From positions 248,001 to 312,000 of the forward strand of contig CAMPDV010000380.1 of the NCBI GenBank assembly GCA_946699065.1: a stretch of DNA of 64,000 nucleotides, given 5' to 3'. Origin of the DNA: Loxodes magnus (Eukaryota; Ciliophora; Karyorelictea; Loxodida; Loxodidae). A model generated the notes under the pieces. It made no database searches, had not been told where the DNA came from, and saw only the letters and a list, made by a program, of their open reading frames with translations. Within the stretch, counting starts at the first letter, position 1. Every line of letters starts with the position of its first letter. This document shows, piece by piece, positions 12,662 to 51,959 of the stretch. The translations under genes were made by a program, and so were the position numbers.

Positions 12662-14596
12662 ATGTCCTAGACTGCTAAATGTCTTTAGTGTCATGGAGAT
12701 TTTAATGGGTAGATTAAAATACCAATGTTGCTACCTTGCAATCACAGCATATGCTATACCTGTGTCCAGGATTAGTTTTAGAAAAATTAGGCAATCACAT
12801 GTGTTTTCTAAAATTGCTAAAAAGTTCATAAAATTCATCCAGTAAAACTTCAGGAAGACACTTAGTTACTCAAGCGTCTTGAGCAAAAGAACCTCATGGA
12901 CAATATAACGATGCTATAGAATCAATCATCAAGAGTTCGTCAAGCTTAAACTTAATTATCCAAGGTCTAAATCAATTTCATCTAGTAGTTGATAAAGCAC
13001 GTGAGTACTTATTTGTTTAAGGAGAATATCAGCTTACAGAGACAGTTGGTTCTGCAGGATAAGTAAATCTAATAATAGTTGAAGTTTTTTAAAATCTAGA
13101 AATAGATGATGGACAAAAAAGAAAGTAGTTAGTAGTAGATCATTTGTTAAGAATTTTCATAGAATGAGCAATAAGTTTCCAAGTTGATAGCTGATGTTTA
13201 AAGAATCATCTAGAAGAGCAATCAGGTATCGGTTAAAGTTTTTGAGGAACTAGACTCTTGCAAGTTTAATCTAACTTAAGTGACATAGGAAAATAGTTAC
13301 TTGAAGAATGAGATCTAAAACTTGAGTAGTTAAATCTAAAGTCAATAATAGCAGTTATCATCTATGCAAGTTCAGTTAAGCACATAGTAACAAGCAAAGC
13401 CTTAAGTGATATAGCCTAAGCAAATTCAATAACCTCAAAATATCCCTGCTAAGCTATAGGACATCTAGATAACTATTGTATCGCCAAACAATAGAACGGT
13501 ATCGTTATCAGTAAAATAAGAGACTACTATCGGTTAGATAAAGCAATAGATCTAAGCTTAAACTAAGTTAATATCTGACGGTTTGAGTATCGTTAAGAAT
13601 AAGGTTATCTTGGATGACGGTTAAACAGTAGCGAGTTAGAAGTTATTGAATGGTGAGAGGTTGCAAATGGAATTTAGTAAGTTCAAATTTAATTTTCTTA
13701 AATAATAATATAGACTGTAAATAGATTTTATAACTTTAATAAAGAGAAAGGTGAGTTTAAGATTTACTATATTTAAAAGGATGTAAGTCTTAAATAATTT
13801 CAATAATAGGGAGTAAGGATTAATTATAATATTTAGATGGTAAGTTAGTATTTAATAACAATTTAGAATGTAAGTTTCATTTTAAATGTTTCGCGATAAG
13901 ATTGTAAGTATCGGTTTTAATAAATTACGATTAAAGGGAGTAAGTTTCATTTTAATAATTAACACTTAATTTAGGTAAGTTTCATTTTAATAATTATTAC
14001 TTAATTTAGGTAAGTTTCATTTTAATAATTAACACTTAAGTTGGTAAGTTAAAGTTTAAGGTGAAAATGAAGGGAGTAAGTTAAAGTTTAAGGTGAAAAT
14101 GAAGCATGTAAGTTAAAGTTTAAGGTGAAAATGAAGCATGTAAGTTAAAGTTTAAGGTGAAAATGAAGTGAGTAAGTTAAAGTTTAAGGTGAAAATGAAG
14201 ATTGTAAGTTAAAGTTTAAGGTGAAAATGAAGTGAGTAAGTTAAAGTTTAAGGTGAAAATGAAGATTGTAAGTTAAAGTTTAAGGTGAAAATGAAGTGAG
14301 TAAGTTAAAGTTTAAGGTGAAAATGAAGATGGTAAGTTAAAGTTTAATGTGAAAATGAAGTGAGTAAGTTAAAGTTTAAGGTTACATTTAGAACGTAATG
14401 TTCTATTTTAGTATGTAAGTATTTTTTTTATAGTTTATTTTTCAGATTGTAATGTGTTTAAAATTGATTTAGGTGGTAAGTGTAATTTAATTTTTAATAT
14501 AGAATGTAAGTTATTTTTAGCATTATAAGGGGGTAATGAGGTTTTTAAGTAATATTTAGGATGTAAGAGCTAATTCTATGTTATGTAGTGTTTTGA
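12662..14596 (+). CDS. RING finger, coiled-coil, ubiquitin-like protein with micro-exon 3' end
   Basis: Exon 1 (12662-13676) is open for 338 codons with TAA/TAG as Gln and has no TGA. Residues 7-52 form a RING-type zinc finger: C7-x2-C10, C26-x-H28, C31-x2-C34, C47-x4-C52 (last pair spaced wider than usual). Residues about 60-250 are a Gln-rich coiled coil, and about 270-338 a ubiquitin-like fold (ITIVSPNNRTVSLSV, then GQIKQQIQ, ILDDGQTVASQKLL, GERLQMEF aligning with the last ubiquitin strand). Known RING proteins act as E3 ubiquitin ligases; that role is inferred. At 13677 a GTAAG site opens a run of intron-like units (separate entry). If all are removed, about 29 more codons join in frame and end at TGA 14594-14596. 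ATG 12662 is the first in frame after an AT-rich leader. Confidence 0.75.
13677..14588 (+). repeat. Ladder of about 29 GTAAG...AG intron-like units separated by 3-nt exons
   Basis: Each unit begins GTAAG, GTAATG or a close variant (GTGAG at 13751, GTAAA at 13717) and ends AG. Unit starts: 13677, 13717, 13751, 13783, 13813, 13840, 13870, 13904, 13940, 13975, 14010, then ten at exact 32-base spacing 14044-14332, then 14364, 14395, 14415, 14449, 14476, 14506, 14533, 14563. Unit lengths are 17-37 nt (29 nt in the central array). Of the 28 gaps, 25 are exactly 3 nt, one is 6 nt (13745-13750) and two are 0 (before 13975 and 14010). Central-array spacers read GGA, CAT, CAT, TGA, ATT, TGA, ATT, TGA, ATG, TGA. 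Constant intron-like sequence with a variable triplet at a fixed place is what a chain of tiny introns and one-codon exons would look like. Confidence 0.8.
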
Positions 14597-14599
14597 GAG

Positions 14600-17500
14600 T
14601 GAAGGACTTTACGAACAAATTAAAACTTTACTTAATTAAGAATTAAAAAATATCTATATTTATTATTATTTTCTTTTAAAGGTTAAGTGGGAAGTATACT
14701 TTAGTGTAGTTATATATGTATTTATAAGTTTACTCTATAAATATATTCTATAAGTATGTGTTTTTTAAGATATAATAATATATATAATATTACAAGTACA
14801 AGATAGTTTCTAAGTATTTGGATATTATGTTATTATATATTTGATTAAAATCCAGAAGTAGGTTAAATCTTAATAAGAGGTTGTTAAAGATTAATATAGA
14901 GAGTTAGAGTAATAAATAAATATTGTAAAATGGCTGTGAAGTGGGTGAGTATAGGTGGATAAAGTTTGAATTTGAATATTATTAAAAGTGTATAATTTAG
15001 TTTTTAAAATTTAATTTATTTCTTAAGGTTTTAGGTAAGTATATAATATGTAAATAATTTTAGTTTGAAGTATTTTATATATTTTAGAATGTGAGTATTT
15101 AAGTAAAATTAATATTAAAAGAGTTTTTAGAATTTAATTGTAAAAATTTTTTTGGGAGTATTAGGCATATAAATAATTTCCAATTGTAAATTTTTAAGTT
15201 ATAATGTTTTTTCATTTTTATTTAGTCGATTAAATTTTTTTTTTTTTTTTAGAATTAAGTTTAAATTTTTTTTTTTTCTATGAATTAATTCTGAATTTTT
15301 TTAAAGTTATTTCGAATTTTTTAGAAATTTTTTTAATTTTTTAGATTTAGAAATTTTTTTTTAGATTTCGTTCAATTAGAAAGTTTTTTTTTATTTTAGT
15401 AGCATGTTAGAAAAGTAAAAAGGTAAATTTTTAAAGTGTCTGAGTATATTTTTTTAGTATTATGTTAGTTTTTTGGTATTATGTTAATTTTTTTTAATTG
15501 CATTTGTTTCTTTTATATTATTTTTATTCTTTGAATTTCTGTTTTAAGTATCCAAATTTTCAAAAATTTTATTTTTGTTTTTTTGCTCAGCTTTTTACAC
15601 TGCAAGAGATTTTCAGGAAGGAATAAATCTTTTTCAAAAATTTTTATGTCTATAAATATTCTTATCTAAGAAAATCATTTAAAATTTAAATTTTTTTTAG
15701 AAAAGATGAAAAATAAAGATTTTTTTTTATCGTTTTAAATTTCTTACTTGTTTTTTTTACAAACAACTTAAAAGATAAAAAAAATATTTAGAAGGTTGAT
15801 AAATATTAACAAAAAATGCAATTTTTAGCATAATCATCTTAAAAAACATCTAGAATAATGTTCAATGAGTTTTAAATTTACATAAAATATATTTTGCTTA
15901 CCTAATTTTAAAAAAAATTCGAATGAGAAATAATAATATTCTTAGATTTTTTATTTATTTTTTTTAAATAAATTAAGATCTAGTTTAAAAAAAATACGCA
16001 CTCTGCTTTTGAAAATAAAAAAAAATAAAAATTTATAAATTTTAAAAGATTTAATAATTAAGTAAATAGAAAAAACAGTATCTGAAAAAGAAGTTAAAAA
16101 CTAAAGCATAAAAAATCTGAACCTATCTAAAATAAAAATATTGCTCTTACTTAATTTAAATTGAAAATATTCAGAATTAAATACAAAAAGAACTTTATAT
16201 CGAAAATAAAAAATAAAACAAAATTAGAATCTTAGTTGAAGTAAAAATAAAGACATTAGTTGTTATATATATAGCTATTTAAAAATAAGATTTTGATAAT
16301 CTTTAAAAACCCTTAGAACATTTTAGATATAGTTACCTTAAAAAAATAGTTTTTTAAATTCGTTATAAAAAAATTAACATTTAACTATAAACCACTAAGT
16401 TAAAGGTAAAAAATCTAAACGCCCTGAATTTAATTGAAATTTTTCATTAAAATATAATGTATCTTAATTAAATCTATTATATCTAATATATTATAAAACA
16501 TCTCTAAAGATTTAAATTTACTTAATTCTCAAAATAAATAAATAACTTAATAAAATGTACTAAGTTTCTTATAATGGACTTAGATGAGAGTAACATATTA
16601 AAAATCCTAAATGTAATAGAAACTATTGATTTAATCATAGTTTAAGCAAAAAACTATTTTAATTTAATCTTTCATAAAAAATCATATATCTATTTTTGAT
16701 AAAGGTAGATTAATAGAAGAAAATTAGTTCACAGTTAAATTATCTAAGGCAAATATTTAATAATCTTTTTATCTTTTAATCAAGATTCTTATGTACTAAA
16801 TTTTTACAATTTAAATATTTGACTGAAATATAAATTCCAATTTATTTATAAAAGTCTTACTCTACTACTGTAATGTTTTAAAACTTAATAGGGACATATA
16901 ATTAAAAAAATTATCAAATAAAATCTTTAAATTCATTATAAAACTTTAAACTATAATTAAAAAAGAGGCAATTAATGAATATTCATAGGAAATTTTATTA
17001 ACATTTAATTAATCAGAAGTAAATTTTTTATAATAATCATTTATGTATTCTTTTTATAGAATTACAGAAATATTAATAATGAAAACATAACCTCGAAAAG
17101 TATTTTCTCATATTAATTTTATAAATTTATTTAAAATAGCTATAAATAAATATTATTAAATCATAAATAAAACATTTAATTAATACTATCTAAAATATTA
17201 TTAAACTCTATTTAAATAAATTTAATAATAGTAATAACAAATAATATAAAAGCGGTCTCTAAATAAATAGTATATTAAAAATAATTTTCGAACCAAATTC
17301 ATCAAAATTAAATGAAATTATAAAAAAAGAGTATTTAACAAAATTTTGATAAATTATTAAAAAATAAATTATATTTTGATCAGAATTTATAGAATTAATT
17401 TTAAGTAAAACTAAGATCAATTTTTATTTAAATCTATAACTTAAAATCTTAATCTAATTTAAAACTTCGTTTTAATATATAAACTAATTTAATAAAAAAA

Positions 17501-23649: not shown

Positions 23650-26600
23650 TCATAAGATCGATTCTATTTCTTCCGCTAGGCTGAGTTTTACCATTCGCTT
23701 CTCACTATCCTTTCTCAGTTTCCTAACCTCTGCTTGGTGGTTTATCACTATTTAAGCAGCCACTCCAAGCTCATCTGGCTAGAATTTATAATTTCGGACA
23801 CACATATACCCGATAGATTCAAAGACGTAAATTAGTAATCCATGCAATTCAATATCGTTATATTATTAGTTGCCGCTATTTATAAAGAAACCTTAGTACT
23901 GGATATTCTCACTATCTCCAATAGATTTTATTACACACTTGAATTATTATTTGCAGAATTTGAATTATAAATCTCTCTCACAAACTATAGTATCTCCAGA
24001 TTGTCCACTATCAAATATTTATTTATATTGTGAACCTCTATTGCTTATGCCTTAGCGGATGAAACTAAATCTATAATATTCTTTGCCACATAATAATCTC
24101 TTACCGACGCATGAATAAACTCAAACCTCTTTTTATTATTCTATTCTTTGTCTATATCAGACACCCTATATGGTTTTAGTCGTCCGTAAACTACTCTATC
24201 CACTTTTGATTCACTTCATCAAAGCTTGATATCTCCACCGAACCCTGTAACATCTTCCATGCCGCATTCTTTTAGATACTTTCAAACAACTTTATTTACT
24301 AGTTGAGCACCTTACTTTTTAAACCCTGATTTTACAATTTTTCTTAGGTTCTTTTGTTTCACTAAACTATGAAAATCTCATATATTCTAGACTTTTAAAC
24401 TACTTAACCACTTTTTAAATAATCTAATATCTCTTCCTCACTCAAACAAATATATAGCAGAAAGGGATTACTGATAATTTCTTTCAGACCAGGTATTCTC
24501 TAGATTAATGCCATCATCTCTTATATTTAAGATGCTTCCACTTGACTTGAAACTTGACTTGCACTTTATTATTACTGGTTCTTCTTAACTAGGACTTTTT
24601 CTATATATTTTTCTATCTAAACGATATCGAATGGCTTTATATACAGTTCCTATAACTCTTATAATTAGACTCTTTCGCTACTGTATGGTGAAAAATAATG
24701 TTGGTAATTTTTTCTTTTAATGCATAATTTACTCTACATGTTATTATATATTTTGCCTGAGGATACTTTTGCTTTAATTTATTACTACTGATAATACCCT
24801 TGTATTCTCCCAACTCATCATACGCGTCAAATAAGAACAGAATCTTTCTAAATTTCAATGTCTCATTTCTTTCTATTTAATAATTATCTAAAGCAGATTC
24901 TATTAATTTGTCTTCGAATGCTTTTATAGTTGGGAGATACACATATATGGATAAGTTTTCATGTTTCTAGTCTAGATATTTTAAGGCTAAAATCGTCAGG
25001 AACAAGGACTTTCCAGAACCGGAATCTCCCAGAAGTAATAATCCTATCTTAGTATCATTTTCTAAAAATTACAAAATTTCAAGGTCAAGATCATCCTCAG
25101 CTTATGAATTAGGATTAGGAGCGCAAAGTAAGCTTACGTAATATTCTTGCTTCTCCGAAACCTCTTCTTTTAAAGTCCTTATCATATTTTAATATATACT
25201 ACTGCTAATGCTCTTAAGTGCCAATCAATTCTCTTCTATTGTTTAAGTAAATAAAACAAAATGCTCTGGATCCATTAATAATTCTAGAATTATCTAACGC
25301 TCTTTTACATTCTTGCTTAAGTTCTCTTTTTTTAACTTAAATATTCTTTCCTTATAAGTGCAAGCTATTTGGTTCTTTTCTAAAGTCAATTCCAAAAATG
25401 TCTTCATTGCCTAGTACCTTATCTACCAATCCTTGTCGTCACATAGTTTTTCTAAAAGCTTACATGAGTCTTCTACCAATTCTGCACTAGCTTACGGGTT
25501 TTTTATCATGTGTTTTAGAAGATAGCATGCTCTAAATCTTAAGTCTATTTTTTCTTTCAAAAACAATATCTCAAAATTGGTAACAATTTTATTTTGAGTA
25601 TTGTCTAACTAAATCACATGCAAGAGCATCTAAGACTCGTAATCTAATAATCTTTTTATAATTGAGCTTCTAATTTACCCAACCTTTTCCTCATAAGAAA
25701 AACTCCTTTATAATAGAGATCGCTTCTGACCCTATAACTCCAACACCAAACGTCAATGCAATTATTCATTAAGCAACTTTTAAAATCTTACATAGAATTC
25801 CAAAATATTCGGTTTCTTTGCTATCTGGAATATTCTCCAGAATCATCAAACTAAATCTTAAGTAAAAATCTAGTTCTTGACCTCTAATACTATTTTTATT
25901 TTTATTTACTAACTTTAAGCTATCATTTATTTTTAAAATGAGCTCTTCTTTTGTTTTTTCATTTATAAAGGAGTTTTACTCGTTCTTCTAAAGCAACATA
26001 GCCAATAACTCAGGAAGATTTCGTACAAGCTACTCTTTCAAAAGCAAAGACCATTCTTCAGCATACTTATGGGAAATAATTTCAATGAATTGATTTATAA
26101 GAACTAATTTATCATTGATATTGGCAAACTTATTCTTTTGAATTGTTTGAATTCCTTGTAGAACTTTATCCATCTTTTATTCATTCAAGCCTTCTTTTAC
26201 GAGCTGCAATCCTTCTTGATAAATCTTTTGTTCCTTATTACCAAAAACTTGTTCATTTTCTTGATATTTCTAACTTTTATCATTGCTTAACCCTTATTTT
26301 GATACTGGCTAATTACTCTACTTATCTTTATTTTTTTAATCTTTAAATTTTTTATCCTGAGAACCACAAAAATCTCTCCTTTTAGCTTCATTCTTTTCTA
26401 AATATTTAGCTTATCTCTCTTATTAGAAATAAGCTTAATTTTTTAATCTATAAGATTCATTTAATTATTCTAGCACTTTGTAATTGCATGCCTTTTTGAA
26501 TCAGCAAAATAAGAAATGTTTTGAAGGAAGTTATAATATTCAAATTGTTGAGATTACTATAAAGAGATCTTTATCTAATTATTTGGAACTTGTTCATCTT

Positions 26601-30079: not shown

Positions 30080-30449
30080 AATAATGTCTTAAGCTTACAA
30101 GTTAAATTTGATTTATCTAATAATTTTTTAATTTATTTAATTATTTAGAATAAGATCATTAGCTTGCTTGATTATCTTTCAAACATTATTTAAATTTAAA
30201 TCTTCTAACCATAAACATTAGATTCAAATACTAGTATCATCTTAATATAAATAAGGGGTTTATTAAAATAATAATAATGAGACTAAAGTTTAGATAAAGA
30301 GAGTTAGTATAATTTAAGGATAAGGAAAATAATAATTAATAGGTTATTAAACTAAAAGTACTTCTATTAATAATATATTAATATATCTTTCATTTAATAT
30401 ACATCTTAATTAAATAAAAGAAAACTTCTTATTTCACTTTAATTAAAAA

Positions 30450-31250
30450 ATAAAAGACTTAACAGGGAGCGATCAAAGTTTGAATGCCTTAGAAATTTTA
30501 ATTAAAATCTTATCTACCTCTAAAATAACTGAGAAACTATTCCAAAATTAGAATTGGCGACTTAGCTTATTAAATAAGAATGATTATGATAATTTACAAA
30601 TAAGAAAGTTTAAGGCATAAATCTAAAAGAAATTAGCAGATATTACAAAATTAAAATCTTAAGGCTTTAAGGATTTACTGAAGTAATTGAAACTATTTTT
30701 ATTTGAAAGAGAAAAAAGATTAATTGAGCAGAATAAGTATAAAGCACTAAGAATATTTGCTAAAAGCAAAATCAAGAAATATAAAATAAAAAAGAAGAAA
30801 ATATTATAATCAGGTTAAATTTCATTTAGAGATTCAGAAAAATCTTCACAAAAAGAAAGAAATGCCTCCTTAAATAATTACAAAAGTGACAAAAATAGAT
30901 AAGAAAAATAATTTAAGACCATAAAAATGAGCTGCAGCTTTCAATTCTATAAATGGAAAGAGAAAAATAGAATTAAGAGAGATATTTATTGTAATAAAAG
31001 ATAAGAAATAAGACATAGATAAAGACAACTAATATGAAATCAATCTAGAGAGCCAATTTTAATTTTCTCTAGTAAAATTTTGTTAATCTGTACTGATAGA
31101 AAGCGAATGAGGGATTTTTAGCAACTATTTCACAAAATTATTTAAGATATCTTAAGTTTAAATTAGGATTATAAAACTTACCTTTGTATCTTGCAAAAAC
31201 TGAAGAAATGTAAAAAAGATAAATGCCATAATATAAATTTTTAATTTAAC
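30450..31250 (+). CDS. Copy A gene 1, unidentified helical basic protein
   Basis: The frame contains LEILIKILSTSKITEKLF near 30.49-30.54 kb, then LKSQGFKDLLKQLKLFLFER and RLIEQNKYKALRIFAKSKIK, all helical and basic. Later segments include SCSFQFYKWKEKNRIKRD and RDFQQLFHKIIQDILSLN. One in-frame TGA lies at 31035 (QLI-x-NQSREP). Copy B encodes the related LEILIKILFASKLTEKLF and ELIEQNKYKALKIFDKSKI, so the protein sequence is conserved between copies and this frame is real. The start codon is not identified; the 3' limit is set by loss of composition. Function unknown. Confidence 0.55.
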
Positions 31251-32170
31251 TATATTTAATTATTATTCTTAGCAATCTTTAAAATATAAACTTTATAAAT
31301 AATAGATAGAAACACTAAAATAATCTATAACTACTAAATACATTTAATTATAAGGAAATGTCTATAGCTAAAATAATAAAGTATTATAACTAAATAAAGG
31401 AAATTAATAATAAAATTAAAGTTAAAAATAATAGCATTGGTAAGCTTATATATGTAAATTAACTAAAGCTAAATAACTAATACTAAGAAGCTTAGTATTT
31501 TAAAATTAACTAATAAATTAAATATTCCTTTCTTAAGTTAATCTTAATCAACAGATATCTTATATTACTATCATTACTATTTATTTTAATATTATATTAT
31601 TTATTTTTACTTATTAAACCACAGTTTCATTAAAATACTTGAATGAACTACATTAGCTGAAAACTATCTTAAAATATTAGAAAGATACTAAAGATTTTAA
31701 AATAAAATATATGAAATACTATGCATGTGCAAGTTAGAATAATTTAATATAAGATTAAGATATTATCACTAATATAACAAACTATTATAAATTCTTTTAC
31801 CTCTAGTATTTAAATAGAGTCTTAATTTTGGATATAAGATTTATTAATAGAATATACAGTTAAGCCTTAATTATTTTGTGGTTAACTCATAAGAAAGAAT
31901 TTAAATAAAAATAAGAAATACTTATAAATTTAGAATAACAAACACAAAAATAAAACTTAGAATATTAAAACTAGAATGGTAATTATTATTTCTATAGAGC
32001 TAAGATTTTTCTTTAATTTTAAGATTCTTTTTTATTTAAATATATTGATATATTTAAATAACTTTAATTATCTCTTAACTTTAATTCTACTCTAAAAATT
32101 TGTTTTAGATGTAATCTAGCTTAATAACTTTTTTAATTCTAGTTAATTTTAAAATTTGAAATAAAATAAA

Positions 32171-34400
32171 ATGGATAATATTCAAATTACAACATAGAAA
32201 TACTAATCTATATCAAAAAATAAAGATTAGCAACCAATTAGAAAATAAAGAAGAGATGAAAGATTGATCTTTCTATTTAAAATAACTAAATTGATAGAAG
32301 ATTCTAATTCTATAGCCTATCTGATACTTTTACACTGAAAAAATACTAGGAAAGTTTAATCTAAGTTAAAGAGCAAAAGCTAAAATAGAATTAGGAAATC
32401 TAGAGACTTCTTCAGTGTATTTTTTTCTAATTGATCAAAGATTAAGTTAGCTTTGATCTCCAAGAAAAAAAGGCATCTCCTTAAAAGTATATTATTTATA
32501 GTATTAAAGATTAGGAAAGCAAATAGATTGGAACTATCTTTCGATCAAAAAATACTTAAAGGCAAAAGGTGATAAGGCCTGAAAATTTTAATAGGAGTAG
32601 AATTAAGTTAAGGACTTTAAGATGAGTTAATCTTAGCAAACATTGAAAGAGTCAAATGTTTTGTCAAACTTTGAGACATTTTAGAAGAGTCTGGATTTTC
32701 CATAGCAATTAAAATTCTGAAAACCACTAAAACTTCCTGTTGATACTAAATTAAACTGAATCTCATTAAGTTCATAAAAAGTAGAGTTTATGCATATCTT
32801 ATAGCAAATAAAGAATACTGTAAGTATTATTTATTTAGATGCTTCTTGAACTTGCCAAGCTTTTTGATCTTAAAAGTTAAAGAGGCTTAGTTTTATAAAA
32901 GCTGAAAAAATAGCAGTTATAAAATCTAAAAGCAATTAAGAGCTGAAAACGGATTCTAAGAGATAATTTATAGCTTAGAAGTAAAATTTAAATAAATTTA
33001 AATAAATTTAAAGAGATATTAGAAAAGCAATTTTTTTTTAACAAGCTAGACTTCAAGTGTTCTTAATTCCTCACAAGTAGTTTTGGAATTTTAAAGATAA
33101 TTTATAAAGTACAGATTTAATTAATAAAGTAGAGAAAGCCTAGTAAAGATAGAGATATTAAAGCTTGACAGGAAAAATTGTAAGCACAAGTGAAACTTGT
33201 AAGTTTCTTTGTAACTTCTAGAGAATTAAGAAAAGCAGATTCTTGAGTCTGAGTGCGAGGGATAGAATTGATAGGTTGTAATTACTTTAGAACATTTGCC
33301 GAATGTAAATATTCCCTTTATAAATAAGAAGAAGAAAACTCTGTTGTTTCTTTAATAAGCTTTAGAAAAATCTGGATTATGTATTTAGTATAAAAAATAA
33401 AATTTCCCTTGTAAAAATATGGAATAGTCAGTAGCTTTAAAAAAGCACCCGAAGATTAAATTAAACTAAATTGGAGCTTTTAACATTCAAACTCAAACGT
33501 GCGCTAATTTTATGCAATTTAATTCTAAGAAATTTTGATTGACATTCCTTAGAAATAAAAGTACAAAAAAAGAAAGCAATTGATTACTCTAAATAATTTA
33601 GTAAGGCTTGAGAGCTTATATATTAAAAGATATCTGAAGTTTTACTCAAAAATGACATAAATAACAAAAAATTTCACTAAGAGGAAAGTGTATGGTTTCT
33701 AGCATATCCTGCTAGAAAATCTAAGCAAGTGCTCAGTTTACTATAAGAATATTATAGCATTATAAACGATGACAATTAGGACAAATTTAATAAAGGCTGC
33801 AGAAAAAAACTACTTATCAAAGAATTTAGAAACGACAAATTGAGAGATTTTTAAATGACTGCAACTAAAATAGAGACCTAATTACTAGGAGTGGAAAAAA
33901 ATTAGCCGCTAACTTTATAAAATATTTGAAGAACTCAAGAAGATTAGTAGTCATTAAATCCAATCAAAAGCGTAAAAAATAAATCCTATGAAATAATAAG
34001 ATCAATTATCCTGGTGCTTCGGTTTTTTAGGGAACTCAGGAATACTTTAGAAAAATTTTTCAAGAAATTAACGAAGCGTAGTATTTAATCAAATAGATCT
34101 TATCAAATATTTTGATTATTTCTGCCTAGCTTAAATTAAATCAAGGCTAAAAATGCAAAATTAGTTTATCATTTTGATTGAATAAAGCTACAAAAAATAG
34201 TAATCTTAACAAAATTCTTAAAAATAATTTTTAAAGTTGCTTGAGAATTTCTCAAAAGAGTCATTGAAAGGAATTTTTGGCTTTTGCTAACATTTAGAAT
34301 CAATTTCTGGATAAATTAATACGAGTATATCAAAACATATAATAAAATCTTGATTAGCTATTAATGATAAATGAATAATTCTATCTTTGCTTATTATTTA
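32171..34400 (+). CDS. Copy A gene 2, large unidentified protein
   Basis: From ATG 32171 a single frame stays protein-like for about 740 codons without a frameshift. It begins MDNIQITTQKYQSI. Segments matched in copy B include RRDERLIFLFKITKLIEDS (near 32.25 kb), DELILANIE (near 32.63 kb), ITLEHLP...N.P.IN.KKTL (near 33.28-33.34 kb) and KISLR.K then ISCQKI (33.67-33.71 kb). Agreement at the protein level between two diverged copies shows selection on this frame. About 16 in-frame TGA codons occur, among them 32672, 33269, 33635 and 33653; those at 32672 (KL-x-DI) and 33635 (KDI-x) are also TGA in copy B, while the copy-B equivalent of 33653 is AGA. Very few TGG are used. I recognise no catalytic motif. 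The end is approximate. Confidence 0.6.
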
Positions 34401-36690
34401 AGCTAAAGTATTACATAATTTTAAATTATAGACTGATTGAGTTATAATAGATGGGTTACATTTGGTAATTTGATTAGTTAAATATTACTTAATTGGTAGA
34501 TTTAAAGTATTTCTATTAATGATTTGTGATAATAAAAATAAAGTTAATATTTAGTTAATTACTTCTAACTATGACTAAGATTGCTTATTAATGTATGTAC
34601 TAAATTAGATTCTAAACATAGAAGTCTATAACTATTTTACTTACTGATTTAATTAAATTAATTCATATAAATCTAAGATTTATTTGATATTAGTAGCTTT
34701 ATCTTGGTATTTAAATAATTCCAGTCTAATATTAAAGATATAATTGGTATATTTGTAAGATAATTTCTAGTTAGTAAGATAAATTAACTTAAGATATTAT
34801 AAAGCTACTTATCAAATATACCTTAAAAGAAATAACTATAATAATAACTAACTACTAAAATACTACAGTCATTCTTTTAAATTTATCTATTATCTTCCTA
34901 ATACAAACATACCCTTTTTATACTTTATTTAAGCAGTTCATTAATTAGATTTATAATAGTATCTTTATAGATTTAACTAGAATAAGCTTTATTAAGTTTG
35001 TATGTAAATTCTATATCATAAACTAATAAAAAAGTAAATAAGTATTATTTAATTTAGTTTCTAAAAAATAATCCTAAAATCAGAAAATTTTCATCAAGCT
35101 AAGATTAAAAAATCAATGATGCTAAAGCGAATAATTTGAACATTTGTAAGCAAAAAAGATGTGAATTAGTTACTAAAATAAATAGACTATAATGCAAAAG
35201 AAAGAATGATTCACTAAAAATGGTTATAGTTTATTAGTCTTAAATTCCATTCTACTTTATGCTTAAAAATAGAAGCTAAATGGATATAAGAAATTTTAGA
35301 AATAGGGAATAATAAATGTTAGCAAAAAGAGTTGAATTAGATGAAGAGTAGATAGGAGAGTATTATTCTTTTGGAATGAATGAAAATTGATTAAGATTAA
35401 AGAATAAATAAAGAGGTGTATTATGATAAAGGTATATTTAGGTTTGATTTACTTTAGGTTTATTTATGGTAATAAATTAGAATATCTATCTATTGAATAA
35501 TAAAATAGTTGTTAATGATATTAGCTGTTTAACAATTTCCCCTTGATCTTTTGATTTTTGTTTAAGGTAATATTTAATTTAAATAACATACTAATAGAAG
35601 ATAATTTTTAACTTAAGTAACTTCTTTCTTGTTAATATTAATCCTTCATTATAGCTTTATTACTTCTTAACTTCTCCTCAAATTTCTAAGATTAAGATTT
35701 ATTAATATAAGTGCTAAATTCTTTAGAATCATCCTTAATTTACTTCAAACAAATCTAGATAAACTTTTATTTGTTTCCAAGATATTACAAAGCATGCTTA
35801 ATAGAAAAGAATTAATAATTATTAAGGGCGAAAATAATAAAATAGTCGATGGATATAAAAGTTATAATAGGTAATATGCAATTATCTTTGTGGATTTATA
35901 AACCCAACTAGAAATTACAACCTAAACATTGTAAGTCCATTTTATTACATTCTATTTAAGATTCTAGTATTCTCACAATAATACTAGTAAATTTGCATCT
36001 ATTTGACTAAGACTTTGACTCTTATCTTTCTCTAATAATATTGTGATATTGATATTTTCTTAAAAGGTTAGTAAATATTTTCTTTATACAATACTATTTT
36101 TAATGTAAGTTATTGCTATTAATTAATTTTAAATAATCTTATAGTTTGCTTAGTATTAATTTTAGATAAAACTTATTAAAATTTTACTAATTATATAGAT
36201 CCTCTACATAATATTATTAACTCTTTTATATCTAACAATCATATTATATAAAAGCCATATAACTAGTTATTAAATCAACAGCGCTAATCAATTTATTATT
36301 ATTATATCAACATATCTTTAATATTCTAGTATACTTAAATATATCCAATTTTATTTATTCTCTAATTATTCCATAACTTCCAGCTATATCAACTATACCA
36401 ATTATTCAAATTATCTTCAAAACTAAATCTATATGGCTTATTAATAATGCTTCTTAATTATACTTATAACAACATTACAGTTCATCATTTACTAGTCTCT
36501 ATTTATTATACATATTTATTCCTTATTTCAATCATTACTTCCTAACTAACCTTACTCAAACTAACCTTAACACTCAAATTTCAATTCAGTAGTACCTACT
36601 ATTATTACTACCTTTTTAATCTATTTTCAAATTATCAAAACAAACTTATTTTATGCTAATTGTAAAACAAATATCATAAACATATGAAAA
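34400..36690. other. Intergenic DNA
   Basis: AT-rich (over 80%). A short stretch at 35.05-35.40 kb is slightly richer in purines but no frame is convincing. Nothing else recognised. Confidence 0.4.
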
Positions 36691-36699
36691 GATTCAACT

Positions 36700-38690
36700 C
36701 AAAGATTAACTTTATTGTATAGCAAGCATTCATCATTAAGATTTAGAATATAACAGACTCTTGTTACATAATTTATATATAAGAAATTAGTTAAAAAGAG
36801 GTAAACTACAAGGGAATATTTATCAAAAATGCTATTGCTATACTTATTAGAAGATTTCAGTCTGATCTAAGAAAATAACTGGAGAGCTAACCATTTAGAG
36901 ATTCTAAATTTTACTTCAAGACTAGTGCTAATAATATAGAAATCAAGAAATTTGGAAAACCTTAAAGCTTTGTTTATTGGCTATATTTATCTGATAAACT
37001 GCTAGAATTTTCAGTATTCTTTCTGGTTGTTCATTTTTTAATAATAGGAAATCAATTTTTTGCAAACTAATCATTAGTAAAATTATCAAGTATATTTATA
37101 GGCTGAGTTTTGAATGCATTAGGCTTTTTTAGACAATCTTAGTGTATTTCTTAGAATAGCTAAAATTATTTTAGCTGAATTTTTTCAACAATAATTACGA
37201 TAATCCAAAATTTAAGCCTATTTTAGTATTTCCTTCAAGAACTCTCTACTATTAAAACTGTATGTTACTGCTATTTTACCTAAAAGCTTTCTTACTTTAT
37301 ATGACTCTTTATCTAAGCTTTTTAGTCTTTATTCCAGCTAGGATTTTTAAAAGAAAAAGATAATTCAGTAGTGTTAGTGTCAAAATTTCTCTTTGCTTAT
37401 CAAATTCTTCTACAATACTTAATGACAGATAATAGTCGATCAAATTTAGCTAATTTTATAAATCAGCAGGCAGAAGTCTTATTATAAAATGTAGAGCTGA
37501 ATGAACAAGTTTACTAATATTTTAACTTCTAATGCATCTAGTTTTGTTAAATGGAATATTTCTTCTCTTTTTGTTATTAAGCTAAAATAGTTTCTATTAT
37601 TTGGTGAATTCACTAATCACTGAATTCTTCAAGGCGGTTTCTTCTACCCAGTTGCATTGTTAGAAACTTACTTCACGATAGGATAAGCAAAGTGACATTT
37701 AGAGTAGTATTGTTTCAAGACAGCGACCTCTCTCTATTTCTTCTACGTCTCTTTACACGTCAGACAAAAATCAAACTCAATAGAGTCTTCTTTCCCTGCT
37801 GATCATGCCAAATTCGTTCCCTTGCCGGTTGAGACATTTTAATTTCTTGCATATTCTTAGTAATAAATCTAAGCTAAAATAATCAAAGTTCTTAATGCTT
37901 CTTAGCATTCTAAAACATTTGGAACTTCTATAAAAGTACCTAAAAGAGCTAGCAGTTGATCATATATTAGATTTTTATTATTAGATTGAGTCAGTTCAAA
38001 TTTCTTTTAGAGCTTAAATATTTCCAATTTAAAATAGTACTTAGAAAGAATACCTTTGATCACTTATTTTATAACATATTCGTTACAAAAAGACTAGATT
38101 TCTCTAAACTTCATCTTTAAGTAAAAATTTAGAAGCTTCTAGCGTAAGCTGAGATTTTTCATTTTTAGTTACCAAACTTCTATATTAATTAGAAACCATT
38201 TTAGCTTATCTAACCTTATTATTATATATTTAGACTATTTTAAAATTAGTTAGAATCTTTCTTTATCCAAAATCCTTATTGTAAAGAATCCTTTTATAAG
38301 AAAATAATTTTCCATTTTATTTGGAATAAGAGAAGCAAAGCAACAGTTAATCAAAGGCTTGAGAAACTTAAAATGAAGATACTTGTTTATTAATTCTATT
38401 GCTATTGCTATTTCCATTTCTATTCTGTAGCATGACATATCACTTTTTTATTTCAGAAGAAAAAATCCCAGATAAATCTTGTCCAAAGTTTTTTAGAATC
38501 TAGAAATCTATTAATTCTAATGATTTAATTTTCTCTTCTCTTGCACTTCTAAGCATTTACCAAGTATTTAGTATATCTGTATAAAGATTTTTTTAGGCTT
38601 AAGTTGATATTTCAATTTATTTAGTTACAATTTAAAAATTAGCTTTAATTTTTAGTAGCGTTTTGCTTAATACCTTCACTAATAGTCACT
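36700..38690 (-). CDS. Unidentified protein with a Cys-rich segment
   Basis: The minus strand at 37.60-37.80 kb is the least AT-rich part and encodes EDSIEFDFCLTCKETQKK followed by QYYSKCHFAYPIVKQV: a C-x2-C and later C-x-H pair that could bind zinc. Downstream it reads YFSLITKREEIFHLTKLDAL then a hydrophobic helix VKILVNLFIQLYILQQ, possibly membrane spanning. TGA appears at several places in this frame, some close together (KPP-x-RIQ-x-LVN), which fits Trp but could equally mark decay. A frame change is needed upstream of EDSIEF. A short ATG ORF at 38250-38438 lies in the N-terminal region but is not clearly the right frame. Family not recognised; ends approximate. Confidence 0.4.
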
Positions 38691-39429
38691 AATTAATAAA
38701 TTAAAAAAGTAGCTACATAGTAAATAATTTGAACACATTGAGTTAAGAATTTTAAATAGATTTAGCATATATAGATATATAATACTACCTATAACTAAAC
38801 ACAGTACCTAACTAATTATATTATTACTTCATTCCTTAATATCTTTATACATACACCCTTCTTATTACATTATTATATACTACTATATTACAAATTACAA
38901 TCTATCATAAACTTAAGATTAACACATCTTTATTATACTGCTCTCATTATCATCTAGAATCTTACCAATACATTATAAATCTCTAAGTCTTCAAAATGAC
39001 ATATATTAAAATATTAAAAGGTATAGATAGTTTAATTATTGTAAGCTTACTATTATGAAGCTATTATTTTGCTTATTTACATTTCTTTCTAAAATTAAGA
39101 TTTCTATTTGTGCTTCTTAGTTCAACTTATATCATTAAGATTTATACCTCTTCGTAGTATAGAGAGATTACCTACTAAGATAACTCTAGACTGTATATCA
39201 TAGTGATAGAATGTCTTAATGATAGATTGAGAAAGAAATTTGTCTAGTTTTAGGCAAAAACTATCTTCATTTAATGAGGTAATTATAAAGAAGATAAAAG
39301 AAACGTTTCAATTCCTTAGATCTATCATTACGTTATAAGGATAATAAATTCTAATATGAATATTCCTTGAACTTAAAGTAAGTTCTTATCTCGGCTACAG
39401 AAAATAAGACAATGTTAAAGTGATCTTAA
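38691..39429. other. Intergenic DNA
   Basis: AT-rich spacer between oppositely oriented genes, with C-rich short words from 38.8 to 38.95 kb. No feature recognised. Confidence 0.35.
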
Positions 39430-41620
39430 ATATAATGTGTAATAATTTAACTGGAGTTTCTAAAGAAATACAGACTAATTACTAAAACATAGTAAATCCA
39501 GCTAATGTCTTTATAAAGTTTATTTTTCAGACGATTGATATGAGACCTTAAAATAAAAATAAACTAATATGACGTTATAATTATTTTCTAAGGAATATAG
39601 CTTCTTAAGTAACTACTACATTAGGAAAAATAGGAAAATAAATTATGTATTTTTAATAGGACACATTTGCAAAACTAGTCAATTTAGAATTAACTTTATA
39701 TTAATCCAAAACGAACATTATCATCTTAAAAGTTTAAAAAATTGAGTAAAAGTTTAGAAGATCTTTTTAAGACTCTGGAACTGAGGAAAAGATAAATCAG
39801 TTCTCATAGAATAGAAAGGATGAAATATACAAGGTGAGCAAATAAATTAACATCTTAAAACGTAAAAAATAAAAGTTTATACAAATTATCTAGGAATAAA
39901 TTCTTTACATCATTTCAATAAAGTACACTTCTTAAAAGATCTTCTTAAAATGGAATTCCACTTATAGGATTTTTGCTACGACAAGAATCTCTGAGTAGCC
40001 TTTATAAGTTAAAAAATATTAAAAATATTTAGAAAACTTAATAAATGTAAATAAAACCTTTTAATTGCTAGAAAAATGCGATTCTAATTAACGATGAATT
40101 TAGAGAAAAGAATAAATTCTAAAAAGCAAAACGCAGAAATTATGAGGAGAACTCTGAACTATATTTCAATAATACGCTGCATTGATACTAAACTGAATAT
40201 TGAATCAAATGCTGGCTTAAATTCTTTCAAAGCTGATTAATTAAGACGAAATTAATAATGATAAATAATTAACAAGGCTCCGAAAATTAGTTCTTTCTAG
40301 CTGTAAAAGAGGAGTGATGGTATACCAGCCAATATTACAAATATTTCAAGTGCAAATTATAGAAACTTTTCCCTATTCTAAAGCAGAAAGAGCAATCTTT
40401 AATAATATTAGCAAAACTTTCTAAATCCTTAGAAGAAGAGTTAATTTTCCTGAAAATTTGCTTTACAAATAGAAAGAAAATTTTCAGGAAAATAAATAGA
40501 TTATTTTAAGATTACAATAACATTTTTTGATCGTACTACTAAAGAATGTAACCTAATGCATTCTCTCCTTAAGGTAACAAGTAGCAAATCACAGTAATTC
40601 AAATTTAGACCTTAATAAATTAAAAGTCTCACAATAGCGAAGGAATTGAAGAATTAAGGGAAAAACAAACTTACTTAGAAAGAACATTTAAAGTAATCCT
40701 CTACAAATATCTTCAAATTATCCTTACTCGGAATTAACTAATCATAAGCGAGAAAAAGATATTTACTAAAAAAATGCCATCAGAATAAGAGAATCCGTAA
40801 TTACTCTTTATGAAGTCAGGACAATTGTAAAATCTAATCTTGGCAATCTTTATCAGCAAGCATAAAGCATTCACCCTTTGAATAATTATTTTAGACTCAA
40901 TTAAATAAGATTCTTTTAGGAAGAAAAGAATATAGAAGGTTATAGTCAATTCCAATAGATTTCTCTTAATACGACATGCAACTAGATTCAGATACTATTG
41001 AGATCTTTAGTGACTAATTAGTAATTTAAAACATTATAGCCTATTTTAAACTAGGCTATTAGTAAACTTGAACGAGGTCTTGCTTATGGGATACTTAAGA
41101 AAGTGAAATTTATCGCAGCAACTAAGTATAGTGTAAAGAGTATTTTAAATGTCTAGAAGAAAAAGAAGGTAACTTGTCTAATAATAAGATTTCCAAACTA
41201 TCTTTTGTGCTGTGAAAATGATAAAGTACAAGGAAGCGGGGAAATAATTAGAGATTTGCTGAAGTAAATCAAATACTCTTAAAGAAACAGAAGCACTTCA
41301 AGAAATGGCTATTTATATTCTACAAAGTAGCTAAATAAATCTAGCATTGAAATTTCTTCAGATAAAGAAAAAGAGTAAATATTACAGTAGAGACGACCTA
41401 AAGAGTAAACTTTCTTTATTTTTCTTATTCATTTTATAAAATCGATTAAAGATATTCTCCAACTAAAATGGTTAAACATGAAAAGACACTATAATAAAAT
41501 AAGTTTAGAGGATTTGAAGTGACTAACTTTAACTAAATTCGTATCAAAAGTATTTTATGTCGTTACACCTTAACTGTGAAGATTCTTTAATATTTGATTT
41601 ATATTTAATATTCTTTGTCT
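39430..41620 (+). CDS. Large unidentified plus-strand protein
   Basis: Two good frames. The first, near ATG 39436 (MCNNLTGVSKEIQTNYQ) to about 40090, has one TGA (NKLI-x-RYNYFLRN) and ends with KYLENLINVNKTFQLLEK. After a frame change near 40.08 kb the protein continues NDEFREKNKFQKAKRR. The second main frame, about 40750-41510, is free of TGA for 250 codons: REKDIYQKNAIRIRESVITL, then YEVRTIVKSNLGNLYQQAQS, SKLERGLAYGILKKVKFIAA, LIIRFPNYLLCCENDKVQGS and the acidic SSIEISSDKEKEQILQQRRP. The short minus-strand ORF 40734-40955 is its shadow. No domain is recognised. The TGA at about 41514 (EDLK-x-LTLTKF) could be the stop or Trp. Confidence 0.5.
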
Positions 41621-42639
41621 CATTATTGAATTATATTACTAAGTAATCTTTCTAACTTTAATATCTTCGATATTAACCCTTCACCTAGTTAAGTATTTTA
41701 GCTTGTCCTATAGTTAGATTTCATTTTTACAATAAAATAATTCGTTATCATTTAACTGTCATTAATACATAATAAAATAAGTAAGTCAATTTAAATAAAA
41801 AGATCTAAGTGACGCTTTATATATTTAGGACTGACTTTACAACACTAGTATCTCTATTATACTCTTAAATAATTAAAAAATATTGTATTTATAAAATAGA
41901 CACTTTAGTATATTAAAACTTATTTTCAATGAAGAGATCTTTAATTTATCTTAGTATTATTAATATCCATCTTGTGTATGTTTAATAATAATCTACTTAT
42001 TTAAAAAGACTTAGAAAGTTATATTTCATATATTAGCATTTATTAACTTAATTACTTCTATTATATATAATTAAACTAACTCTTATCTTATTAACATTTA
42101 CAGCTTGTAGATTTATGATCATTATTTATAGATATTCATTATCAATATTTGCTTACCAAGTAATTATAGAGCAGTTTTAATAAATTGATATCATCTTTAA
42201 ATAAAATATTACTTCTCTAACTTCTTCAATTGCTAGCCTAAAAAATCAATATTCTATCATCTAAATTGAAATACCCTAAGGTATTAAGACTATCAATTTA
42301 ACTACCTTAGACTTTTCTTTCAGATTCGATAGAAGGTTGTAAATATAAGATATAATGAGTAGTGTGATATATTTATTAATATGTTCTACTATTGATACTG
42401 AAACTGGTAAATATGCTGCAATTTAAATACTAAAAGTTTTTAAACATAAGATACATGCTAAGAAGCTCTTAAAAGTAGAAAGATATTAAGATTTATTAAG
42501 CATAGAAACATATTAGTACTGTTCTGATATTAAACTATCTTAAGACAAGGAATTAGCAGATTTCTATCTATTAATGTTTTAGTTAACTTAGTGAGAATAG
42601 ATATAGATTATTATTAATCATGATAACTAGCCAATAATT

Positions 42640-44825
42640 GATTATAATAATTTGATATTCTCGTGATGTTATCAAAAGGAATTAGTCCTAAAGTTTTAAA
42701 GCCAATAGATGTTCTCAAGCAATTTTAAAGATTTTATTTAAGAATTTTTGGCATGATATTATATCTTTTAAAGCTTTTGCTTTATTCAATTAAAATTATA
42801 AACTTAATTTTATATTCTTCACCCCTTGATTAATTTAAGTTATGACTTAAATTAAATCAAGATATTTTTTAAGGTCTATTTAATTAAGTGACTATATCTC
42901 CTTATTTTTTTGAAGAACTTTTTCAAAAATATCCCTGAGTTCTCATGGGTAACTAGGCACTAATAATTAAAAAATCTTATTATTTCATGTGATTTGTTTT
43001 CTACTCTTGCTTATTATATTTATTTATTTCTAATATTCTTGAATCCTCCAAATATTTTAAGGAGTTGGTTTCTAATTTTTTTCAATTCCTACCAATTTAG
43101 TCTTTATTTTATTTGCAGGGGTTTAAAAATCGCTAAAACAGTTTATTATTATTTTTTTGCTTCAATTTAGCAAATTTTTCTGCAATACTTATTAAATTTG
43201 CACTAATTGGCACGCATCCACCTAGCCAGAATATTCTTATAGTAAGCTGAGTATTTGTTTTAGATTTTTTAGCAAGATATATTAGGAACTGTGAATTTTT
43301 CTTTAAGTGAAATTTTGTAGATATTTATGTCTCTTCCTAATATAGTTTCAGATATCTTTTATCAGATTAACTCCCAAGCCCAACTAAGTTATTTAAAGTA
43401 GTTTTCTACAATTTTTCTTAATTTTATTTCTCAATAATCTGAAATCAAAGCTTCTAAGAATTCCATAAACTTAATTTTCATTTAAGTTTGAATCCTAAAA
43501 GTTCCAATTCAGTCTACTTTAATTTTTGGGTGCTCAATTAGAGCTACTGATTACTCAATATTATTCAGGAGAAGTTAATTTTTTATGCTAAATAAATAAT
43601 CCAGATGCTTCTAAAGTTTATTTAGGAAACTATAGGGTCTTCTTCATATTTATATAAGGACTATTTTCAGTCGGTAAATGTTCTAAAGTAATCAATCTAA
43701 CTTTTTAAAAACTATCGCTATTCTTTCTAGAACTCAGTTCCGTGAATCTGCTTTTTTAATTCTTCAGAATTGACTAAGAAACTTATGATTTTCACTTAAG
43801 CTTATAATTTTCCTTTCAAGCATTACTATCTCTAGTACTTGTTAAGCTTCTCTCTTTTATTAATTAGAGCTGGACTCTATATATTATCTTACAAATTCTA
43901 AAATTAATTGTGAGGAATTAAGAACACTTGAAGTCGAGCCTGTTAAAAGAAAAAGCTTCATTTCTAATATCTATTTATAGGTACTTAAAATTTAGCTGCC
44001 AAGTAATAATTATCTCTTAGAATCTGCTTTAAAGCTCATAATTGCTTTTTAGATTGAATAGCTGCTATTTTTTTCAGCTTGCTATAGAGCTAAGTCATTT
44101 GAACTTTTAAGATCTAAAAGCTTGGCATGTTCTATAATAAAAAGGGATTTTTCTAGCGTCTAAATAAATAATACTTACAGTATTCTTTTGTTATAAGATA
44201 TACATGAACTCTTCTTTTTAAGAACTAAATGTGACTCAGTTTAATTTAGTATTTGTGAGAAACCTTAGTTTTTTTTCGAAATTTTGACTGTTATGAAAAA
44301 TTCAGACTCTTCTAAAAATGTCTCAAAGCTTGATAAAATTTTAGGCATTTTCAATGTTTGCTAAGATTAACTCATCTTTTTGTCACTGAACTATTTCTGC
44401 TCATATTAGAAGTTTCAGATCTTATCCTTTTTACCTATTCTTATTTTTTGATTGAAATATAGTTCCAGAATTAATGTCTTTTGCTACTCTTTATTGCTAT
44501 AAATATTATAATTTTAAGGAGATTCCTTTTTTTCTTGGAGATCAAAGGTAATTTAATCTTTTATTAATCAAAAGCAAATATGCTGAAAACATCTCTTGAT
44601 TTCCTAATTCTATTTTAGCTCCAGCTCTTTTTACTTAGATTGGGTCTTTCTAATATATTTAATTGCAAAGCTATCAGATGACTATAGAATAAGAATCCTC
44701 TATCAATTTAGTTATTTTAAATAGAAAGATTAATCTTTCATCTCTTCTTTATTTTCTAAATATTTGCTAGTCTTTATTTTTTCTGTGGATTAGTGTTTCT
44801 ATGTTGTAATTTGAATAATATCCAT
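42640..44825 (-). pseudogene. Copy B gene 2, frameshifted relative of the 32171 gene
   Basis: Begins MDIIQITTQKHQS at 44825, matching MDNIQITTQKYQS of copy A. An extra base near 44.77 kb shifts the frame before RRDERLIFLFKITKLIEDS. Later conserved segments are DELILANIE, ITLEHLPTENSPYINMKKTL, LEASGLFIQHKK and KISLKEKF...ISCQKI, each needing another frame change to connect. With three or more shifts it is probably not translated whole, although some could be assembly errors. Protein-level similarity to copy A is good evidence that this was a coding unit. Confidence 0.55.
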
Positions 44826-45699
44826 TTTATTTGATTTTCGAATTTTAAAATTAACTAAAACTAAAAAAGTTATTAAGTTAGCTTACATCTAAAGCAAATT
44901 TTTAGAGTAATATTAAAGTTAAGAGATAATTAAAGTTATTTAGTTGAATTACTATATATTTGAATAAAAAAGAATCTTAAAATTAAAGGAAGATCTTAGC
45001 TTTATAGAAATAATAATCACCAATCTAGTTTTAATATTCTAAGTTTTATTTTTGTGTTTTTTATTCTAAATTTATAGTATTTCTTATTTTTATTTAAGTT
45101 CTTTCTTATGAGTCAACCACATAAATAATTAGGCTTAACTGTAGATTCTATTAATCAATCTTATATCCGAATTTAAGACACTATTTAAATACTATAGGTA
45201 ATAAATTTTCGTTGTTTGTAATATTAGTAATTATATCTATCATTATTTCATTTAATTATTCTAATTGTGTATCAAGCATAGTGTTTCATATATTTTATTT
45301 TAAAATCTTTAGTATCTTTATAATATTTTAAGATATTTATCAGCTAATGTAGTTCATTCAATTATTTTAATGGAAATATAGTTTATAAGTAAAATATAAT
45401 ATGGTAATAAAATAAATAGTAATAATAGTGATATAAGATATCTATTGATTAAGATTAACTTAAGAAAGGAATATTTAATTTATTAGTTACTTTTAAAATA
45501 CTAAGCTTCTTAATAATAGTTATTTAGTTTTAGCTAAATTACATATATAAGCTTACTAATGCTATTATTTTTAACTTTAATTTTATTATTAATTTCCTTT
45601 ATTTAGTTATAATACTTTATTATTTAAGCCATAGACATTTCCTTATAATTAAATGTATCTAGTAGTTATATATTATTTAGACTTCTTTTATCTATTATT

Positions 45700-46500: not shown

Positions 46501-46699
46501 GTAAAATAGTAAGTTTAGTTTAATTTAATTAAGATATATATTAAATTAAAGATATATTAATATTCTAATAATAGAAATACTTTTAGTTTAATAGTCTACT
46601 AATTATTATCTTCTTTATTATTTAATAATACTAACTCTCTTTATCTAAACTTAAGTCTCATTATTATTATTTTAATCAAACCTTTATTTTTAAATATAT

Positions 46700-51950: not shown

Positions 51951-51959
51951 TGTAATGAT

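Follow-up and report, generated by a model that had tools for sequence, protein, structure and literature searches.

Tandem intron-like units with 3-nt spacers at the 3' end of a RING-like and ubiquitin-like gene family in Loxodes magnus: probable chains of one-codon exons

The window, a 64,000-nt stretch of the genome of the karyorelict ciliate Loxodes magnus, contains an exon with predicted RING finger and ubiquitin-like (UBL) domains that runs directly into a long chain of GT...AG units separated by very short spacers. The features of this locus are listed below, where spacers are given as the putative micro-exons that they would form under the reading favoured here.

12662..13676, forward strand: exon 1, 338 codons plus one base, with a predicted RING finger (residues 7-47), a Q-rich middle and a predicted ubiquitin-like domain (residues 270-335), based on Pfam, PDB and genome matches
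13677..13713, forward strand: unit 1, intron-like, 37 nt, followed by the putative micro-exon ACT (13714-13716)
13717..13744, forward strand: unit 2, intron-like (GTAAAT...AAAG, 28 nt, three possible AGs), followed by the putative 6-nt micro-exon AGAAAG (13745-13750)
13751..13939, forward strand: units 3-8, with putative micro-exons GAT GGA ATG AAT ATT GGA, the recurrent head of the array
13940..14043, forward strand: units 9-11, three related units (35, 35 and 31 nt) with two spacer-less AG/GTAAG joints, followed by the putative micro-exon TTG
14044..14363, forward strand: units 12-21, the 29-nt block (GTAAGTTAAAGTTTAAGGTGAAAATGAAG, with a single-base difference in unit 21), carrying the hypervariable triplets GGA CAT CAT TGA ATT TGA ATT TGA ATG TGA
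14364..14588, forward strand: units 22-29, with putative micro-exons AAC TAT ATT GTG AAT GGG GAT, the recurrent C-terminal end of the array
14589..14596, forward strand: start of the putative last exon and its TGA stop (14594-14596), in the phase of exon 1; a phase-1 TGA closes 36 of 36 complete-ended copies
14597..14660, forward strand: conserved 3' untranslated region, non-coding, with 1-nt indels between copies and including the conserved GAGAGTGAAGG

All 29 GT...AG units that the initial annotation had placed at 13677-14588 were recovered with the ends it described and with lengths of 17-37 nt, and its count of spacers measuring exactly 3 nt (25 of 28) was reproduced. Units 9/10 and 10/11 abut with no spacer between them, and the spacer after unit 2 measures 6, 4 or 0 nt, depending on the AG that is chosen. 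This choice bears on the earlier statement that exon 1 joined to the spacers stays open as far as the TGA at 14594-14596, which holds with the 6-nt option, giving the product NQKGWNEYWIGTSLNLNLNVKLYCEWGLF, but fails with the 0-nt option, under which the tail ends after one residue. Joints of the form AG-NNN-GTRAN make up chains of 6 and 18 in the array, against a longest chain of 3 in 400 strands of first-order Markov shuffles. Likewise, a splice-border chain model trained on the units of the window scored the array at 264.5, compared with a maximum of 15.8 over single strands of 12 shuffled windows and 13.3 at the next best site of the window. A chance origin of the chain is excluded. The interiors of the 16 distinct units are barely more alike than shuffles (3 of 120 pairs above the 99th percentile), and recent tandem copying therefore fails to explain the constant 3-nt spacing of these units, while the ten tandem 29-nt units look recent. 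The open frame proves little by itself, because 6,413 of 20,000 random orders of the window triplets also stay open, and because TGA can mean Trp: karyorelicts use code table 27, in which TGA is Trp or stop (as set out in the available part of PMC11441545).

Exon 1 matches the Pfam families zf-RING_UBOX (E 4.4e-5, 23.8 bits) and ubiquitin (E 2.9e-4, 21 bits) just under their curated cut-offs of 25.2 and 25.4, respectively, and its best PDB match is a ubiquitin chain (E 9.7e-6). No homologues of exon 1 at E values up to 0.001 were found in the protein database searched. The exon had been described as stopping one base into a codon at 13676, which we confirm, and the same boundary, a final A one base into the codon and directly at GTAAG, is found in 41 of 41 parsed copies. 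With a mean dN of 0.073, a mean dS of 0.204 and a median dN/dS of 0.36 across 702 copy pairs, exon 1 is under purifying selection.

The gene belongs to a large family. The 29-nt unit occurs exactly 6,078 times in the 705,730,643-base assembly (4,312 forward and 1,766 reverse copies), and the reversed unit, used as a control, occurs 0 times. Exon 1, used as a protein query against its own genome, gave 119 scored matches among 3,650 first-look candidates, with E values between 1.3e-175 and 4.7e-115. Coverage reaches 337 or more of the 338 residues in 113 of these matches (rows counted by eye), and six carry one internal TGA each, the remainder none. From the 6,078 units, and from 397 exact units in 38 copies, roughly 580 arrays may be present genome-wide, an estimate drawn from a sample biased toward the window copy. 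Among 13 regions fetched around units, 12 contain exon 1 followed by an array; the remaining one (L022) holds a single lone unit, and exon 1 was not found in it. The family copies are embedded in longer homologous stretches: for five of the nine copies tested, matches to the window extend over the whole locus retrieved, as much as 7.5 kb. Another copy of the RING-UBL exon lies on the same contig about 22 kb upstream of the window (225676-226689).

Forty-one copies drawn from the 119 matches, the window copy included, were parsed into units. The rows left out were L015 (the same place as L048), L022, L046 and L047 (with the array of L045) and L023 (7 units parsed); C-terminal counts are without L017 and L024, which reach a contig end and a locus end, respectively. 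The parser requires GT and AG and rewards 3-nt spacers, other lengths costing less than the score of one unit. With these settings, the 1,267 joints comprise 1,172 of 3 nt, 68 of zero length, 22 of 6 nt and five odd ones (8, 11, 14, 15 and 15 nt), so that 1,262 measure 0, 3 or 6 nt, and 8, 11 and 14 are the only three lengths that are not multiples of three. As we read them, one of the odd joints would be a 2-nt spacer, and the other four would be units with a damaged distal AG. The 36 complete copies have 24-45 spacers each, opening with a recurrent order of head triplets (GAT, GGA/GGG, ATG, CAT/AAT, ATT, GGA) and closing with a recurrent order of end triplets (TAT, ATC, GTG, AAT, GGG, GAT).

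Between these borders, the middle block combines constant introns with hypervariable triplets. Across 524 middle units from 38 copies, the intron is identical in 397 (mean mismatch 0.32 of 29), and the pairwise difference per site is 0.022 (2.2%) in the intron versus 0.655 (65.5%) in the triplet, whose three positions carry 1.76, 1.54 and 1.75 bits of information. CAT, AAT, GGA, ATG, ATT, TGA, ATC, TTG, AAA and TTT account for 502 of the 524 triplets, or letters. Adjacent units with consensus introns differ in their triplets in 236 of 293 pairs, and the last base of a letter is independent of the first base of the next (mutual information 0.012, null 0.014). TGA triplets showed no depletion near the array end (p 0.31). 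Between copies, the order of the triplets looks random: the longest common letter subsequences are near shuffle level in every distance class above 1% (0.44 vs 0.41 shuffled for the 21 pairs at 1-6% exon 1 distance; 0.52 vs 0.45 for the closest pair, 2.7% apart), and four- and five-letter words are shared at shuffle level (four-letter words common to 21 copy pairs, 18.5 expected). Repeats of words within a copy are in excess (7 vs 1.5), which indicates that local duplication occurs. The three copies without measurable difference in exon 1 (L045, L046 and L047, on three contigs, with exon 1 of L045 and L047 exactly identical) have the entire array in common; they are perhaps haplotype or assembly duplicates, and their identity suggests that the letters are stable over short times. 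Variation is not spread evenly over the repeat, as it would be in a simple minisatellite; the middle block is a true minisatellite with high turnover, in which variation is almost confined to the triplet.

At 14 of 15 positions in the borders of the arrays, orthologous introns come in more than one length (at unit 2 partly via its ambiguous end), whereas border spacers are 3 nt long in 474 of 474 cases, as counted by a parser that favours 3 nt. Unit 1 occurs in six lengths (35-42 nt) among 37 copies, with a GTAAGT start and an ATAG end in 36 of 36. In the unit 2 region, compared among 13 copies, length differences are not all multiples of three, and the AGNAAG hexamer is variable. The ninth-position joint has zero length in 21 of 36 copies, the window copy among them. 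GT and AG bound 29 of 29 units in the window and the border introns of the 36 copies, where the parser imposes them. For seven C-terminal introns, GTA is the opening trinucleotide in all 36 of 36 copies, against differences of 0.03-0.23 in the interiors.

The last three triplets of the arrays differ by 0.036, 0.037 and 0.056 per site, compared with 0.209, 0.140 and 0.109 in the adjoining introns. Without L020, a copy whose row is shifted through the lack of one end triplet, the values become 0.019, 0.000 and 0.000 against 0.202, 0.136 and 0.091. The first GAT is also more conserved than its intron (0.018 vs 0.062), and GTG and ATC/ATT are about level with theirs (0.090 and 0.086 vs 0.076 and 0.073). 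Several observations count against reading the spacers as exons: the remaining border triplets are more variable than their own introns, positions -3 and -4 of the C-terminal introns have no extra conservation (0.154 and 0.184 vs 0.136 in the interior), and avoidance of internal AG was not seen in the units. The introns of L. magnus measured by RNA-seq have a mean length of 19.3 bp and a mode of 17 bp, with 93% up to 25 bp and multiples of three depleted (PMC11441545); only 4 of the 29 units in the window are within 25 nt, and 8 of the 16 distinct units are multiples of three. That L. magnus has tiny introns at all (PMC11441545) counts in favour of the exon reading; ciliate intron sizes are also treated in the available parts of PMC5014332 and PMC3341644. 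A stretch of joined, unit-less sequence would read TATATCGTGAATGGGGATTGATGA, and four joined patterns had 0 matches in the fetched loci, which amount to little sequence.

Downstream of the TGA, the conserved region is consistent with the 3' UTRs of L. magnus, which average 53 bp (PMC11441545). A coding continuation past the array (CFESEGLYEQIK...) was allowed by codon scores and was rejected in favour of a 3' UTR on account of the 1-nt indels between copies. A downstream G-over-C skew of 0.69, which exceeded all 440 AT-rich comparison windows, was considered as a sign of a decayed array and dropped, because other windows come near it with -0.66 and have no array.

The remainder of the window is of mixed content. 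A 16.4-kb segment (30246-46692) carries an inverted repeat whose arms measure about 4 kb and are 60-94% identical when compared in 180-base stretches. The arms look decayed, with numerous small indels and without codon periodicity. A tandem satellite with a 37-bp unit in about 28 copies (62944-63999) reaches the window end, and a LINE-type endonuclease-like fragment lies at 59903-60604 (Exo_endo_phos_2, E 0.001, below cut-off). On the minus strand, NACHT/HEAT-type gene fragments with shifting frames occupy 24300-26200 (NACHT just under cut-off), and 51900-53060 holds a protein-kinase-like gene that carries about three frameshifts; the piece scanned had no match in Pfam. The gene is presumably a kinase, judging from motifs that we also take to mark its Trp positions, and the TGA codons at those positions suggest the karyorelict code. 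Being frameshifted, the kinase and NACHT fragments yield no usable introns. The Tetrahymena chromosome-breakage motif was not above chance in the window, and no tRNA or Rfam matches were found there.

Removal of the units would lead from exon 1 into phase 1. Among 1,182 array codons, TGA occurs 7 times in the phase of exon 1 (phase 1), versus 48 and 126 times in the other two. If a 6-nt exon follows unit 2, the frame reaches the common stop in 31 of 34 tails, which have 27-47 residues; L020, L021 and L044 contain an internal TGA in phase 1 and end earlier, and L031 and L037, whose spacers break the frame, were left out of the translated tails. N-x-x-G-W opens the phase-1 tails (N 97%, G 97%, W 100%) and L-Y-R-E-W-G-L closes them (75-100%); in the middle, Tyr, Trp, Gln, Asn and Asp are abundant (92, 73, 66, 57 and 54 residues in 34 tails, five of them cut early). 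In phase 0, the border residues are at least as conserved (head T 92%, K 97%, D 97%, G 97%; end I, N, G, D 97-100%), and of the single-base changes between border haplotypes, 11 of 23 are synonymous, versus 2 of 22 in phase 1; on both counts phase 0 is favoured. In phase 0, a TGA follows straight after the last triplet in 33 of 36 copies. This phase would, however, introduce 44 TGA letters into the tails, of which 33 lie no more than 18 triplets from the array end, a region where coding TGA is avoided in L. magnus (about 20 codons ahead of the stop; PMC11441545). No GT-AG join carrying exon 1 into phase 0 was found. Phase 1 appears likelier than phase 0, although the phase is contested, and the restricted letter set is accounted for by neither.

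Taken from sequence comparison within the family, the array probably forms the 3' part, split and hypervariable, of a gene that belongs to a large RING-UBL family, and consists of spliced introns and one-codon-sized exons that encode a variable protein tail. The units would be spliceosomal introns, mostly of 17-44 nt, taken out by intron definition. The simplest order of removal would run from 5' to 3', because after each removal an ordinary upstream exon lies before the next 5' splice site; every removal would lengthen the upstream exon in the manner of a zipper, akin to recursive splicing, and under this order the zero-length joints would act as ratchet points. Every 3-nt exon would contribute one codon's worth, split 1+2 across introns (phase 1), and the product would resemble an E3 ligase and carry a tail of about 27-47 residues, laid out as a conserved start (N-x-x-G-W), a hypervariable middle (Tyr, Trp, Gln, Asn, Asp) and a conserved end (L-Y-R-E-W-G-L). 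The middle may be diversified between gene copies through fast turnover of 32-nt cassettes with about ten triplet letters, whose renewal would fit block exchange among hundreds of copies together with local duplication.

The micro-exons may also be real but used combinatorially, alternative splicing taking some, all or none of them; this is compatible with the chain of one-codon exons, and as an account of the array we think it unlikely. Spacer lengths being multiples of three, a tail that omits every triplet would be MF and end at the same TGA, and 14,486 of 20,000 random subsets of the window triplets reach the common TGA, but the conserved last triplets are probably included.

That the array is neither spliced nor translated, and is a minisatellite whose triplets are DNA or RNA barcodes or the product of a mutation hotspot, also seems improbable. 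All 36 copies with a complete end keep the stop, exon 1 has an open frame under selection, the 3-nt spacing stays where unit length varies, and the last three triplets are kept within diverged introns, none of which such a minisatellite would lead one to expect, although it would accommodate the near-identity and high copy number of the middle units, the random-looking triplet order and the border triplets that are mostly no more conserved than their own introns. The letters also act as nucleotide words (GGA 68, GGG/GGT 0; TGA 44, TGG 0), which speaks for it. The initial annotation had posed one-codon exons and a splice-bordered minisatellite as alternatives; border lengths, last triplets and selection on exon 1 across the family favour exons, and the minisatellite is also partly right, for the middle block.

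We consider it quite unlikely that the main-block intron is only 17 nt long (GTAAGTTAAAGTTTAAG) and that the 15-nt exon then left (GTGAAAATGAAG plus the triplet) encodes a five-residue repeat with one variable residue. This division would use an inner AG that is present in 9 of the 10 main-block units of the window, and it matches the commonest intron length of L. magnus, 17 nt (PMC11441545). Also in its favour, four copies (L031, L035, L037 and L051) each have one unit without a usable distal AG, at which the parser used the inner AG, in our reading of the odd spacers. Against it, 9 of 162 units have a G at position 17 and hence no inner AG, unit 21 of the window lacks it as well, and position 17 is among those with higher variant counts (12 of 524); outside the main block, 13 of 19 units in the window have a single AG beyond ten bases in.

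Ciliates are known to remove short DNA segments precisely, which counts for the idea that the units are internally eliminated segments (IESs) lost from the somatic genome and not introns. This possibility, raised at the outset, is very remote, as the unit ends are GT...AG and not the TA...TA of ciliate IESs, the units are present in the 705,730,643-base assembly, which in size matches the published macronuclear assembly of L. magnus (706 Mbp), and L. magnus is without classical IESs according to the available part of PMC11441545.

In the main articles of the open-licence literature searched, no like description of tandem micro-exon or 3-nt exon arrays was found for ciliates or elsewhere. TAL effector repeats combine a constant repeat with a short variable element of small alphabet, the order of which varies between genes. 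The arrays described here likewise pair a constant repeat with a small-alphabet variable element, but the constant part is coding and DNA-binding in TAL effectors and intronic by appearance here. Six pattern matches were obtained in viral_contigs, five of them without a chain of three joints and one a short tandem repeat. The words RING, ubiquitin, microexon and hypervariable do not occur in the main text of PMC11441545.

Schistosoma micro-exon genes, as described in the available part of PMC10526429, resemble these arrays in having many tiny exons (3-81 bp), and the joints reported here (1,262 of 1,267 measuring 0, 3 or 6 nt) conform to the runs of tiny exons in multiples of three that characterize such genes. 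In Schistosoma, however, introns reach 5 kbp and exon sizes are unequal, whereas the introns of these arrays mostly measure 17-44 nt, almost every array exon would be 3 nt, and diversity sits between many gene copies. Tetrahymena LRR genes, which carry arrays of exons of exactly 90 bp, likewise combine uniform exon length and intron phase in a rapidly expanding ciliate family (PMC6564038, in part), but those exons encode LRRs and are separated by phase 2 introns, while the exons here would be of 3 nt, probably in phase 1, and belong to a RING-UBL protein. Recursive splicing at ratchet points (PMC8605326, in part) shares adjoining acceptor and donor sites with the zero-length joints found here, and stepwise removal with the order proposed for the units; the cases described there concern long introns, whereas tens of steps would here fit into about 1 kb. 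Natural splicing of a 3-nt exon is exemplified by Drosophila homothorax (PMC7392893, in part), though with one 3-bp exon compared with uninterrupted runs of 24-45 spacers in the 36 complete copies. Further related literature includes PMC3274533 and PMC5182062, again in part.

Extending the reading as a chain of one-codon exons to function, we tentatively suggest, and regard as doubtful, that L. magnus may possess several hundred ubiquitin-ligase-like receptors whose random-looking, aromatic-rich putative binding tails, flanked by conserved borders, would be joined in RNA from dozens of 3-nt exons. Fast cassette shuffling might maintain the repertoire, with a logic like that of variable receptor loops, and the receptors might tag invaders, transposon products or non-self partners for degradation. 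If the arrays are spliced as read here, the limit on exon size and density would move, and 24-45 consecutive tiny exons would require an intron-definition spliceosome working in ordered steps. The family would then be a microbial variable gene family with variability confined to one-codon exons between constant introns. Exons of 3 nt are likely to be missed by ordinary RNA-seq mapping, and such genes may consequently be overlooked in other genomes. Two questions, how tiny introns are recognized and how a hypervariable repertoire is generated and maintained, would thereby become testable in one organism.
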